Positions 4,813 through 31,340 of a stretch of 44,362 bases of DNA are shown in pieces. A program made the translations under genes and the position numbers. A model generated the notes under the pieces. It did not search any database. It was not told the origin of the DNA and saw nothing but the letters and a program-made list of their open reading frames with translations. Within the stretch, counting starts at the first letter, position 1. Each line of letters starts with the position of its first letter. Source of the DNA: Myxococcales bacterium (GTDB lineage Bacteria; Myxococcota_A; Polyangia; Polyangiales; Houyiibacteriaceae); NCBI GenBank assembly GCA_029862185.1, contig JAOTXX010000030.1, forward strand, positions 1 through 44,362. Reading direction: 5' to 3'.

Positions 4813-6206
<1,394 letters not shown>

Positions 6207-6210
<4 letters not shown>

Positions 6211-24244: not shown

Positions 24245-24260
24245 CGCCCTCACATTCATT

Positions 24261-24281
24261 AAAAGGGGACAGTCCCCTTTT
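24261..24281. repeat. Perfect 10-bp inverted repeat (REP-like palindrome)
   Basis: Arms AAAAGGGGAC and GTCCCCTTTT flank a single central A, in the gap between the divergent folK and xseA genes. The GGGGACA end resembles the GGGGACACTCTCC end of the 64-bp repeats elsewhere in the window. Isolated palindromes of this kind are often REP elements mobilised by RAYT-type transposases; none is encoded here. Confidence 0.7.
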
Positions 24282-24312
24282 TCATAGGATGGATTGCGGC
24301 TAGGTTCGGCGC

Positions 24313-27119: not shown

Positions 27120-27183
27120 GGGGACACTCTCCGGGGTTCTAAATACCCGATATGGGGCAGGTTTTGGGAGAAAGATCGCAGCG
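27120..27183 (-). repeat. 64-bp dispersed repeat, copy C (inverted)
   Basis: Read on the minus strand it begins CGCTGCGATCTT and ends GGAGAGTGTCCCC, exactly 64 bp, like the copies at 27232-27295 and 39212-39275. The middle ~39 bases differ. It is head-to-head with the 27232 copy across a 48-bp spacer, giving a 176-bp imperfect inverted structure. Confidence 0.75.
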
Positions 27184-27231
27184 GCATATCACTGTGATTT
27201 TCGCGTCTCAGAGTGGGTGTGCGGAAGATGT

Positions 27232-27295
27232 CGCTGCGATCTTCGTTGGAGAAAGCTTATTATTTCAGGTGCTTATGGGGGTGGAGAGTGTCCCC
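27232..27295 (+). repeat. 64-bp dispersed repeat, copy B
   Basis: Starts CGCTGCGATCTT and ends GGAGAGTGTCCCC, 64 bp. The half nearest 27295 encodes the last ~11 residues and stop of the sigma-54 regulator on the minus strand, so the element appears to have entered or replaced the end of that gene. Its middle is AT-rich compared with its surroundings. Confidence 0.78.
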
Positions 27296-28777
27296 TGTGT
27301 GTTTGGCTACGGTGCGGCGGTCGACGCCGAGGATTTGGCCCGCTCGGGTGTAGTTGCCCTCCCGTTGGTAGACCCAGGTGCTGTAGGTGGAGATGACCTG
27401 GTCGAGGGTGGCGTTTGCGTTTTGCATTTGCTCGACGAGCGAGTCGAGGGCGCCGCTTGCAGGGACCGCTGTCGCCGGAAGGTAGCGCCCGTGAATCAAG
27501 AGGTTGCGGACGCACTGCTCGAGCTCCCGCATGTTGCCGGGCCATGGGTAGTCGAAGCCAACGCCACGTTCGATTCCAGACATGACCTCTTCGAAGCTCG
27601 CACGATCGTCGGCGCCGAGGGTGCGTTGAATCAACACTCCGACGAGATGCGCAAGCTCGTCACAGTCGCCCGCGAGTTGCTCTTTCAGAGAAGGGGTCCG
27701 AATGACGTCCGAACAGAGGCGATAATAGAGGTCCTCTCGAAAACGCCCGGCTTGCATTTCGCGCGCTAGGTCCCGATTCGTCGCCGCGACCACTTTGCCT
27801 CCAAAGCTTCTTGGCTCGCTGTCCCCCAATCGGTGAAACGTCCGGGACTGCAGCACTCTCAGAAGCTTCACCTGGACTTCTGGATCGAGCTCGCCGATCT
27901 CGTCCATGAAGATGGTCTCGCTCGCGGTGCGGCCTTCCAGGTGGCCCATGCGGTCGGCGATCGCGCCGGTGAATGCCCCCTTCTTGTGCCCAAAGAGCTC
28001 GGATTCGATGAGCGTATTGGACATCGCCGCCAAATGCAGCGGGTGAAATGCCGTCCGGAAATCGCGGGCGAAGCGACGGCGACCCCCGTCGAATGGAATG
28101 TACGAAGAGAGGCCGATCGCGCTTGCAACGAGCTCCTTGCCTGTGCCGGAGGAGCCCAGAATCAAGGTGCTCGCTTCGTGCATTCGACCTTGGAGATGAT
28201 GCAGATAGCGCCAGGGGTCGTGTGTGAACAACGACTCCCAGACGCTCGCGCGCAGCTTTGCAGCGGCGATCGAGTTCCCGAGGATTTGATGAAAGACGAA
28301 ATGAAAAGCGCGCCGCGTTTGAAAGAAGAGCGCAAGCAAGTCGGCAGGGTCGCTTGCCCAACGAGGCGGACTCACATGCCGAAACAGCTCGCGAAAATCA
28401 TGTTGAAACGAGTCGTAGAAATCGACGGTCTCGGCGCGAGACTTGGCGATGATCGACTCATACAGCTCGGAGTCGTAGCGATAGTAGAGCACGTATAAGG
28501 CGGCGCCCCGAATGAGGTCGCAGTCTTGCTCGCTGTATGCTGCGCCGCGCTCGAAGCCGGCCTGCGCAGCCGCCATCTGCCGTTCGGCTTCTTCTTGAAT
28601 CGCGGGGAGCGCCGGGTCTTCGAGCGGCCAGTCCAAGGAGCGGCTCCACGGCGAGGTGCGCGCCACCTGCTCGCCCACGATGATCGCCTCGAGTCTGGGC
28701 CGCTCGGGCCCAAACGGATTGGTGAATCCGAGCTTCCCAATGGCATCGAGCCGGGCTGCGGCCTCTGAGTCCAGCAT
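27260..28777 (-). CDS. Sigma-54 enhancer-binding protein, divergent from a pspA-like gene
   Basis: 505 residues. A unique N-terminal helical domain (about 1-200) has no receiver, GAF, PAS or FHA signature. The AAA+ domain follows, with Walker A GSSGTGKE (208-215), an intact GAFTGA loop (267-272), Walker B IFMDEIGEL (289-297) and an arginine-finger region FREDLYYRL. A C-terminal Fis-type helix-turn-helix (NYTRAGQILGVDRRTVAKH) completes it. ATG at 28777 is used; a TTG two codons earlier is possible. TGTACA sites overlap the start and extend into the divergent region, suggesting autoregulation plus activation of the pspA-like gene. This parallels pspF-pspA, but PspF has no N-terminal domain. The last residues come from a repeat element. 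Confidence 0.9.
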   Translation of the reverse strand: MLDSEAAARLDAIGKLGFTNPFGPERPRLEAIIVGEQVARTSPWSRSLDWPLEDPALPAIQEEAERQMAAAQAGFERGAAYSEQDCDLIRGAALYVLYYRYDSELYESIIAKSRAETVDFYDSFQHDFRELFRHVSPPRWASDPADLLALFFQTRRAFHFVFHQILGNSIAAAKLRASVWESLFTHDPWRYLHHLQGRMHEASTLILGSSGTGKELVASAIGLSSYIPFDGGRRRFARDFRTAFHPLHLAAMSNTLIESELFGHKKGAFTGAIADRMGHLEGRTASETIFMDEIGELDPEVQVKLLRVLQSRTFHRLGDSEPRSFGGKVVAATNRDLAREMQAGRFREDLYYRLCSDVIRTPSLKEQLAGDCDELAHLVGVLIQRTLGADDRASFEEVMSGIERGVGFDYPWPGNMRELEQCVRNLLIHGRYLPATAVPASGALDSLVEQMQNANATLDQVISTYSTWVYQREGNYTRAGQILGVDRRTVAKHTGDTLHPHKHLK

Positions 28778-28815
28778 GTACAAGCAGTGTACACAAGATG
28801 GTCATTTTATGTACA
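28777..28815. promoter_or_regulatory. Three helically phased TGTACA hexamers: probable enhancer (UAS)
   Basis: TGTACA occurs at 28777-28782, 28788-28793 and 28810-28815. Centres are 11 and 22 bp apart, that is one and two helical turns, all on one face of the DNA. Relative to the predicted start at about 28893 they lie at roughly -78 to -116, where sigma-54 activators bind. The first hexamer abuts the regulator's own start codon, so binding could also repress its synthesis. Confidence 0.65.
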
Positions 28816-28866
28816 TAGCGATGAAGGCGTCGCAAATTTCCTCAATAATTTCAAGATCATCAGGCC

Positions 28867-28882
28867 TGGCACGCTCCCTGCT
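28867..28882 (+). promoter_or_regulatory. Sigma-54 (-24/-12) promoter of the pspA-like operon
   Basis: TGGCACGCTCCCTGCT matches the consensus TGGCACG-N4-TTGCW except for C in place of the first T of TTGC. GG (28868-28869) and GC (28880-28881) have the required 12-base offset. Predicted start about 28893, followed at once by AGGAGG (28894-28899) and the ATG at 28905. Confidence 0.75.
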
Positions 28883-28904
28883 CTGTCAGGCATAGGAGGT
28901 TGCG

Positions 28905-29540
28905 ATGAATCGAATGAAGCGATGGACCATGAGCGTGACGAGCTGGGTTGATGGAGTGCTGGCCCAGGTCGAAAACCACGAGTCGGCCGTCAACGCGGCG
29001 ATCGGCCGGGTCCGCCAATCCACGGCGCGAGCACGCGTCCAGCTCAAGCGGGTCGAGCGCGACCAGCATTCCCTGAGGGACAGCCTCGCTCAGGAAGAGC
29101 GCGCGGTCGAAGTCTGGCGCCGACGTGCCAAGTCTGCCGAAGACGAAGCGGTTGCCCTCGAGTGCATGCGCCGCTTCAAGGCGTCGGAGCGACGGTTACA
29201 GCAATTGCGCCAGCGTCTAGCCGAGCACGAGCGATCGCACAAAGAGCTCAGTGAAGGCATCCGGATGTTGAACGCCCGTTTGGGCGAGCTCAACGAACGC
29301 AAGAACTTGATGCGCACACGCCAGTCGCGTGCGGAGGCCGCCCACGGCATGGCGAGCGCGACGGGACCGATCGGTGACCTCGAAGAGGTCTTCGATCGAT
29401 GGGAGACGCGGGTCGGTGAGATCGAAATCGCATCGGAATGCGCCGAACCGCTCGACGCGTTCGAAGCCGAGCTCGAAGCCGTCGACGAAACCGAAGATCT
29501 TCGGCTCGAGCTCGAAGCACTGCGCACCGAGGAATCCTAG
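28905..29540 (+). CDS. PspA/IM30-family protein
   Basis: 211 residues, almost entirely alpha-helical coiled coil. An N-terminal amphipathic segment (SVTSWVDGVLAQVENHESAV) is followed by the PspA-like core: EVWRRRAKSAEDEAVALECM, matching the conserved W-x3-A region of PspA, and ERRLQQLRQRLAEHERSHKEL. An acidic C-terminal tail follows. PspA/IM30/Vipp1 proteins form ESCRT-III-like assemblies that support damaged inner membranes. Strong AGGAGG five bases before the ATG; an ATG at 28914 is an alternative. It has its own sigma-54 promoter facing a sigma-54 activator gene, and is followed 8 bases later by a membrane protein gene whose ribosome-binding site overlaps its stop. Confidence 0.82.
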   Translation: MNRMKRWTMSVTSWVDGVLAQVENHESAVNAAIGRVRQSTARARVQLKRVERDQHSLRDSLAQEERAVEVWRRRAKSAEDEAVALECMRRFKASERRLQQLRQRLAEHERSHKELSEGIRMLNARLGELNERKNLMRTRQSRAEAAHGMASATGPIGDLEEVFDRWETRVGEIEIASECAEPLDAFEAELEAVDETEDLRLELEALRTEES

Positions 29541-29548
29541 GAGGCTAG

Positions 29549-30802
29549 ATGGAGACCCGACTTCAACAACTCTTTCAAACACTGCGCTGGTGCGGCGCCG
29601 CCATGATCGTGGCTGCCGCGGCCACGTTTCTCGTTCAGAGCTGGGATCAGGTCGGGGACGTGCCCCGCTATCTCACGCTGCTCGGAATGACCACGCTGCT
29701 GCCGGCCCTGGCCTATGTCTGCGGCATTCGCATGCAGGAGGGCCGGAGCGCGCGCGTCCTGATGCTCACCCTGCTCGCACTCATCCCGATTCACGCGGGC
29801 GTGCTCGGCGGGTTCGTCCTGTCGCAGTTTGGAGCGGGCACCAGCAGCCTCGGGCCGGTCGCGCAATGGGTCGCGCCCAGCCCCTTGGCGGCAGTCCTGC
29901 TCGTTGCGGGTGCCGGGCTTGCTCTGATTCCCTTGATCTGGGCCGCCTTTCGCGTGCTCTGGCGACCGCACGCTCGCCTGCTGACCGCGGCAAGCGTCGC
30001 AAGTCACGCGCTCTTGCTCGTCCCCGATCGAAGCTCAGTTGCGGCAACCCTGACCGTCGTTCCCATTCTCGGATTCACCGCCGCGTGCGCGGCCCGCATC
30101 AAGCCGGAGACCCTGGAGTCACGGCTTGCGGTAGCCTCCCTCGTCGGGCCGGCCGCGGTCATCGCCTCGCGCCAACTGCTCTTCTACGATGTCTCGAGCG
30201 CTTTCTGGGGCGCCATCCTCGGAACCTGCGCATTGGCTCTCTTCACACTTGGAAAGAGGAGCGGGGACGCCACCATCGAACGGTTTGCAATCGTGCCGAC
30301 CCTCCTTGCGGTCGCGGCGTTCGTCGACGCGACCGGCCCCTGGCCGACCTTGTCCGATTCGAGCGTTTGGCTGGCCTATGGTCTGATTTCGTCCGTCCCG
30401 CTGCTTGCCTTCGCCTGGACGAGCTCTCACAGCAAGGAGCTCTTCCTTTGCGCGGCGGTCGCTCTGAACGCAACCATCGCAATGACCACTCTACTGCTCG
30501 ATCCACGGCCCTGGGCGGCCCTCCAAGCCATCGCCCTGGGCCTCGGCATCTCGAGCTACGGGTTCGTCACGGGCCGCCGCCCTCCGCTCTACTCGGGAAT
30601 CGCACTCGCCGGCTTTGGATTCATCATCGAAGTCGTTCACGCCATCGAGGTGTTCCAACCAAGCGGTTGGCTCGCGCTCGCCGGTTTCGGCTCCGCCTTG
30701 GTAGGGCTGACTGCCTGGCTGGAGCGTCGCGCGCGTTCCGTTCGTCAGGCGGCGCCCGCTGCCAATCTGTCCCAGCCCGCTCCGGCGACCCTGTCACAAT
30801 GA
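29549..30802 (+). CDS. Polytopic membrane protein, second gene of the pspA-like operon
   Basis: 417 residues with about ten or more transmembrane helices spread evenly over the length and short loops. The N-terminal pattern (LRWCGAAMIVAAAATFLVQSW, then PRYLTLLGMTTLLPALAY) recalls DUF2157/DUF4401-type proteins, but I do not assign it firmly. The C-terminus is a short hydrophilic tail rich in Ala, Pro and Gln. AGGAGG spans the stop of the pspA-like gene (29539-29544), so translation is coupled. Classical Psp systems pair PspA with small PspB/PspC proteins; a large polytopic partner is different. A role in anchoring the PspA-like protein or sensing membrane state is inference from context only. 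Confidence 0.75.
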   Translation: METRLQQLFQTLRWCGAAMIVAAAATFLVQSWDQVGDVPRYLTLLGMTTLLPALAYVCGIRMQEGRSARVLMLTLLALIPIHAGVLGGFVLSQFGAGTSSLGPVAQWVAPSPLAAVLLVAGAGLALIPLIWAAFRVLWRPHARLLTAASVASHALLLVPDRSSVAATLTVVPILGFTAACAARIKPETLESRLAVASLVGPAAVIASRQLLFYDVSSAFWGAILGTCALALFTLGKRSGDATIERFAIVPTLLAVAAFVDATGPWPTLSDSSVWLAYGLISSVPLLAFAWTSSHSKELFLCAAVALNATIAMTTLLLDPRPWAALQAIALGLGISSYGFVTGRRPPLYSGIALAGFGFIIEVVHAIEVFQPSGWLALAGFGSALVGLTAWLERRARSVRQAAPAANLSQPAPATLSQ

Positions 30803-30868
30803 CAGTCAAACCTGGGAAGACGGTCGCCTTTTGCACGAAATCAATGGGTAAATGGGCGCCTTACGGGC

Positions 30869-30884
30869 TGGCACGAGGCCTGCA
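30869..30884 (+). promoter_or_regulatory. Second sigma-54 (-24/-12) promoter, before the small anchored protein
   Basis: TGGCACGAGGCCTGCA has the same layout as the element at 28867 (TGGCACG-N4-CTGCW) and the same C-for-T deviation. GG at 30870-30871 and GC at 30882-30883 are 12 bases apart. The predicted start (about 30895) is only ~5 bases before the ATG at 30900. No TGTACA site lies directly upstream. Confidence 0.6.
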
Positions 30885-30899
30885 TTACCCCAGGACGTC

Positions 30900-31340
30900 A
30901 TGAGACGAACGGGTATCTATCTCCTTGTCATCCTATCGATCGTGGTCGGGGCCGCGGTGGTCACTGACGCCATCGTGGTCACCGACCGCGAGCGAATGGA
31001 TGAGTTCATCGACTCGGTGACCGGGCAGGTGTCCGAGTCCCGCATCGACAACGCGCTCCGTTACGCGGACCCGTCGAAGGTCACCGTGGAGCTCGTGCAC
31101 GACGGACACAGGCGACGCTACAGCACCCGTAACGCGGCGGCGCTCAAGCCCGATGCGCGCAAAGCGCTCGCGTCCCTCGAGGGCTCGAGGCTTCACCTGA
31201 TTCAGGAAAGCATTTCGCTCGATGGCGGGCGCGCCCGAATCGCGCTGAGGCTTCGAACCGACGCCGGCCTCGCCAACACGATCTTCGACCTCCGCCGCGA
31301 AGAGGATCAGTGGATCCTTCGCCGCGTGATCGTCAATTAG
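30900..31340 (+). CDS. Small membrane-anchored periplasmic protein
   Basis: 146 residues: a basic N-terminus and one transmembrane helix (RRTGIYLLVILSIVVGAAVV), then a ~120-residue domain with DEFIDSVTGQVSESRIDNALRYAD and a beta-rich end (SISLDGGRARIALRLRTD, WILRRVIVN). I do not recognise the family; the end is reminiscent of NTF2-like or lumazine-type cone folds, but that is only an impression. ATG at 30900 follows CAGGAC and a -24/-12 promoter. A frame from 30852 is longer but starts before the promoter. Probably the third member of the Psp-like regulon. It overlaps the convergent DUF167 gene at TTAG. Confidence 0.75.
   Translation: MRRTGIYLLVILSIVVGAAVVTDAIVVTDRERMDEFIDSVTGQVSESRIDNALRYADPSKVTVELVHDGHRRRYSTRNAAALKPDARKALASLEGSRLHLIQESISLDGGRARIALRLRTDAGLANTIFDLRREEDQWILRRVIVN

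Follow-up and report, generated by a model that had tools for sequence, protein, structure and literature searches.

Two predicted sigma-54 promoters of likely unrelated neighboring units in an uncultured Myxococcota genus

Gene organization of the locus

We analyzed a 44-kb window (the whole stretch of 44,362 nucleotides) from the genome of a member of an uncultured Myxococcota genus. The locus of interest starts with a gene on the reverse strand (27260–28783) encoding a sigma-54 activator (bEBP; PF00158, 4e-45). Its Walker A and GAFTGA motifs are intact in the alignment and its AAA+ domain is followed by a C-terminal HTH-like region. The N-terminal ~200 amino acids present no family match and are helical in the predicted model, while the AAA+ part of this model resembles FleQ, NifA and NtrC-type structures. 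The window contains another, ordinary sigma-54 activator ORF (4813–6210, reverse strand) with a PF00158 match at 5311–5808. Inverted repeats built on GGGGACA../..TGTCCCC were also noticed by eye, in an intergenic stretch (~24260–24285) and at the 3′ end of the first activator gene (~27120–27295).

The genes that follow are divergent from this activator and lie on the forward strand. The first one (28905–29540) encodes a member of the PspA/IM30 family (PF04012, 39.7 bits for a gathering cutoff of 33.9) whose product scores below the PspA equivalog cutoff; we refer to this gene as pspA. The sequence AGGAGG is present ahead of it at 28894–28899. The second gene (29549–30802) begins 8 nt downstream of pspA and encodes a polytopic membrane protein with zero Pfam or NCBIfam matches. 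This membrane gene co-occurs with pspA and the activator across relatives, and the two forward-strand genes are probably carried on one transcript.

The third gene (30900–31340), hereafter gene 3, encodes a protein of 146 amino acids composed of an N-terminal helix, which is likely a membrane anchor, and a domain of NTF2-like predicted fold. No Pfam family match was found for this protein. Its AlphaFold2 model presents a mean pLDDT of 80.6 and was matched by Foldseek to DUF4783 and NTF2-like structures with E-values of about 1e-5. The predicted fold of the domain is thus similar to that of known NTF2-like proteins (DUF4783 structures 4orl and 4ouq), but sequence identity to these structures is 8–18% and the membrane anchor is an additional element of gene 3. 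The relatives of gene 3 that bear names come from uncultured Myxococcota and Deltaproteobacteria bins.

Two sites matching the sigma-54 consensus

The preliminary description of this DNA had reported the pattern TGGCACG-N4-CTGCW at two positions, each directly ahead of an ORF, and no further correctly spaced intergenic match by eye in 44 kb. Both statements were borne out: searching both strands, the sites TGGCACGCTCCCTGCT (promoter 1; 28867–28882, forward strand) and TGGCACGAGGCCTGCA (promoter 2; 30869–30884, forward strand) are the sole exact matches of the window. The first T of promoter 1 is located 38 nt from the start codon of pspA (ORF beginning at 28905) and the first T of promoter 2 is located 31 nt from the start codon of gene 3 (ORF beginning at 30900). 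Transcription is predicted to start near 28893 and near 30895, respectively, the latter about 5 nt upstream of the ATG. At both sites, the GG and GC dinucleotides are found 10 bases apart within a TGGCAC..TGC context.

The two exact matches to TGGCACGN4CTGCW compare with 0.03 expected in the window, and none of 100 shuffles reached two. When Y was allowed at the first base of the −12 element together with one mismatch, the window yielded no additional site. Tolerating two mismatches led to 8 matches in the window for 9.6 expected, which represents noise. Scans for sigma-70 promoters and terminators gave no result exceeding chance.

The standard sigma-54 consensus is TGGCACG-N4-TTGCW (quoted in PMC7910581). 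The two sites resemble standard sigma-54 promoters in their GG/GC spacing, in the −24 heptamer, in the TGCW of the −12 element and in the presence of candidate enhancers upstream. They differ by the scarcity of T at the first −12 base of both promoters and by a short distance from the −24 box to the start codon, which is merely 28–32 nt for gene 3 and 29 nt for the gspC-position gene described below. The genome encodes one RpoN and 25 PF00158 matches, about 18 of which are strong. Based on their sequence and conservation, both sites are very probably sigma-54 promoters. It is extremely improbable that they have no promoter function and match the consensus by chance in GC-rich DNA: although the window count at two mismatches is no higher than in shuffled sequences, the exact matches largely exceed their expectation, and the GG, the GC, the heptamer and the distance to the start codon are conserved across many species.

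Conservation of the two promoters

The site of promoter 2 was found upstream of gene 3 in 18 genomes of the genus and in 14 loci of nine other genera, spanning three families, and its first T is located 28–32 nt from the start codon in every one of these loci. Promoter 1 was identified in 13 of 13 loci of the genus, at 38–39 nt from the start codon. The gene-3 site presents a mean information of 1.40 bits per column in the genus and 1.15 in the other genera (respectively, 0.39 and 0.22 in the 110 bp upstream) and the pspA site 1.49 bits per column (0.64 upstream); because GG and GC were required in locating the sites, independent evidence comes from the fixed distance and from the columns other than these four. 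Three genomes of the genus have TTCGCA as the −12 element and retain GG and GC.

Both sites deviate from the consensus at the same base (C for T), a coincidence to which the preliminary description had given weight. The deviation itself is real at both sites, but it is uninformative since C is common at this position in the genome and among orthologues. Genome-wide pattern searches with TGGCACGN4YTGCW returned 15 matches, nine of them with C. When any base was accepted at that position, as well as C or T in the −24 box, the genome presented 36 matches relative to 13 for the reversed control. Among the orthologues of promoter 2, this column is composed of five C, nine G, one A and three T in the genus and of ten C, two A and two G in the other genera; among those of promoter 1, it is composed of eleven C, one A and one G. 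These base counts rule out the shared C as a signature of the pair and indicate that C is an allowed letter and that these two promoters rarely have T at this base.

The activator–pspA–membrane gene module

An array of TGTACA-type hexamers is located at 28777–28815. It consists of four copies with a spacing of 11 bp, starting at 28777, 28788, 28799 (degenerate, TGGTCA) and 28810. The pattern TGTACAN5TGTACA with at most two mismatches was found three times in the window for 0.10 expected, and the array is retained in relatives of the genus. This array represents a candidate enhancer of pspA and possibly an element for the activator's own control. The first hexamer overlaps the start codon of the activator, which suggests autoregulation. 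We propose that promoter 1 would drive pspA and the membrane gene, and that it would be opened by the divergent activator acting on the TGTACA array in between, in a layout similar to that of PspF and pspA.

The PspF/pspABC phage-shock locus (PMC11237479) indeed presents a comparable layout: a central promoter region is common to a divergent sigma-54 activator and pspA, pspA has a −24/−12 promoter, and a membrane protein is encoded after pspA. Several features are nevertheless different. Relative to PspF, the activator of the present locus possesses an additional N-terminal region of ~200 amino acids, with the AAA+ domain beginning near residue 200, and it scores 147.2 bits with the PspF equivalog model, whose cutoff is 443.55. 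Because of this low score and of the extra domain, we did not file this activator as PspF. In addition, the second gene is neither PspB nor PspC by any family model, and the enhancer is an 11-bp-phased TGTACA array.

Gene 3 as a separate unit

In most genomes of the genus, gene 3 is oriented like the membrane gene and starts 97 bp past its end. It had been described as the third gene of one locus; the adjacency is correct, but the gene stands as a separate unit, which is found in the order aroE–gene 3–lgt in relatives. This order, with the module absent in between, was observed in G027, G031, G037 and G042, with the reservation that incomplete assemblies limit each individual module absence. 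Genome-wide searches of G027, G031 and G037 detected none of the three module genes (activator, membrane gene or close pspA), and promoter 2 is intact in these genomes; G042 contains a diverged module (64%) on a separate contig. In other genera (G023, G045 and G046), gene 3 is located near aroE and/or lgt without the module. Conversely, the module is present in another family (G099 and G134) with gene 3 not nearby. Finally, pspA and the membrane gene are missing beside the activator in G028 (L103), where the gene-3 promoter is intact. A remnant of a pspA-type promoter, TGGCACGCGCCGTGCG, precedes the intact gene-3 promoter at this last locus.

Since gene 3 occurs without the module and with an intact promoter, the gene and its promoter look like the older resident, and the psp module most likely came to adjoin gene 3 later. 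This distribution bears on the suggestion of the preliminary description that the two promoters were duplicated or co-evolved. Promoter 2 is present in nine other genera as well as in congeners that lack the psp module, the enhancers of the two promoters differ, as do their N4 spacers and flanks, and the C that they have in common is nothing unusual for this lineage. A duplication of the promoter is ruled out by the distribution and by the differing enhancers. The related proposal that gene 3 can be expressed independently of the first two genes gained support.

Upstream of promoter 2, we identified the palindrome TGTCACAATGACA (30792–30804), which follows the pattern TGNCA-N3-TGNCA and constitutes a candidate enhancer of gene 3. 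It is the sole motif of this type in the window. The membrane gene has its stop codon inside this palindrome, as though the module ended precisely there. A TGTACA array was sought upstream of gene 3 and was not found.

Alternatively, the whole locus might form a single psp-type stress regulon, in which the divergent activator opens both promoters and gene 3 is boosted separately without any duplication. The 97-bp distance and the shared orientation observed in most genomes of the genus fit such a regulon, enhancers can act at a distance, and both promoters possess a GAAATCATTG-like box. However, genomes lacking the activator retain promoter 2 together with its own palindrome, gene 3 is devoid of the TGTACA array, and the palindrome is wanting at pspA promoters. 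We therefore regard a single regulon as quite unlikely. The neighboring activator as the sole controller of gene 3 was rejected, because the promoter persists where this activator is undetected.

An enhancer motif shared with a type II secretion locus

Searches for PF00158 and RpoN defined 26 loci in the genome, only one of which, L022, holds the gene-3 motif, and it does so twice. This locus, on contig 45, encodes a response regulator of the receiver-AAA+-Fis type and, downstream, a gene in the position of gspC (without Pfam match), the GspD secretin and the GspE ATPase. The first motif is located 25 bp ahead of the ATG of the regulator and the second ahead of the promoter of the gspC-position gene (CGGCACGN4TTGCT). 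Across 30 orthologous secretion loci, we counted 53 such motifs for about 2 expected, and both motifs are present in 17 of the 17 loci of the genus.

We then built an enhancer matrix trained on the sites of the secretion loci only and used a threshold of 12 bits. The top score of this matrix in the 44-kb window is the gene-3 enhancer. This score is modest for a single window (it was reached by 11 of 100 random windows), and the enhancer claim rests for this reason on conservation. At 12 bits or more, the matrix detected 31 of 32 gene-3 loci bearing the promoter, one of 13 pspA loci, none of 13 promoterless gene-3 paralogues and 1.3% of random 170-bp segments. Second paralogues of gene 3 (in G016, G023, G046, G177, G178, G179 and others) present neither the sigma-54 promoter nor the palindrome. 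At loci L116, L123, L166, L167, L171 and L176, such a promoterless paralogue adjoins the copy that possesses both elements. A composite search for enhancer and promoter across the genus recovered gene 3 in 18 genomes, the remaining matches being at control level; an analogous search recovered gspC in 17 genomes, and its control gave no match.

From these patterns, we consider it likely that the window contains two genuine sigma-54 promoters belonging to unrelated neighboring units, and that gene 3 is read via its palindrome by a different, unlinked activator, for which a secretion-linked regulator is the best candidate. In detail, promoter 2 would drive gene 3 and would be opened by an unlinked activator acting on the TGNCA-N3-TGNCA palindrome. 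The best candidate for this role is the response regulator encoded ahead of gspC-gspD-gspE on another contig, with the same palindrome ahead of its own gene and ahead of gspC. Because the palindrome is common to the regulator gene and gspC, gene 3 would most likely belong to a small type II secretion regulon; it likewise has this enhancer motif ahead of a sigma-54 promoter.

It is also conceivable, but unlikely, that the two units are independent and that gene 3 is activated by another NtrC-family protein recognizing a similar motif, in which case gene 3 would be unrelated to secretion. The genome encodes many activators, and the half-site letters differ within the genus: gene-3 sites are mostly TGYCAN3TGRCA and the regulator's own site is TGACAN3TGTCA, so that a related activator could be the reader. 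In addition, G028 (90% complete) and G042 (79%) kept the gene-3 enhancer, and no close orthologue of the secretion regulator or gspC promoter was found in these genomes. Against this possibility, the motif was found in the secretion-linked locus alone among the 26 loci, and in other genera the range of letter variants at gspC overlaps that at gene 3 (TGCCATTTTGTCA and TGACAGAATGTCA, for example).

The proposed secretion regulator occupies the same place as Nla4 of Myxococcus xanthus, an NtrC-type activator adjoining type II secretion genes, as judged from locus numbers only: nla4 is MXAN_2516 (PMC2875238), whereas gspD and gspK are MXAN_2514 and MXAN_2505, respectively (PMC3222651). In the literature, Nla4 has been associated with starvation and development (PMC4048283). 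Our literature search found nothing direct on the sigma-54 control of gsp genes or type II secretion in Myxococcus. More tentatively, gene 3 could be the founding member of a Myxococcota family of accessory factors for type II secretion, which would be membrane-anchored and NTF2-like. Gene 3 and gspC would then be controlled together by an Nla4-type activator that also regulates itself and acts via a palindrome dedicated to this purpose; the regulon would be very small, and its sigma-54 promoters would produce nearly leaderless mRNAs. We view this extended scenario as possible rather than probable.

These observations turn a look-alike pair of sites into a testable wiring diagram. An uncharacterized and widely conserved envelope protein would be linked to type II secretion, and the PspA-type stress module, whose activator is unusual, would be set apart from gene 3. 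For a regulator placed like Nla4, the analysis supplies a candidate binding motif and a short list of putative targets.

Predicted leaders and a box upstream of the promoters

The leader lengths were derived from geometry, assuming that transcription starts 12 nt after GC. The gene-3 mRNA is predicted to be nearly leaderless, with a leader of 2–6 nt. For the gspC-position gene, the distance between the −24 box and a GTG is exactly 29 nt in 17 of 17 genomes of the genus (L223–L239), from which a 3-nt leader is predicted. The leader of pspA is predicted to be just sufficient for the AGGAGG. Leaderless mRNAs are known from other bacteria (PMC3616915), and we found no report in the literature searched linking them to a sigma-54 secretion regulon. 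The analysis also offers a clean case of conserved sigma-54 promoters whose predicted transcripts have almost no 5′ leader.

Finally, a GAAATCATTG-like box was observed in the window at 28843–28852 (reversed, pspA) and at 30837–30846 (gene 3), as well as at gspC (L222). An identity of this box as an IHF site was considered and is unsupported by the IHF consensus. At pspA, gene 3 and gspC alike, the box is located 24–32 bp ahead of the −24 element. No other sigma-54 site retrieved from the genome matches the motif, which was chosen post hoc from these promoters, as well as these three. The same box recurs in relatives of the genus.
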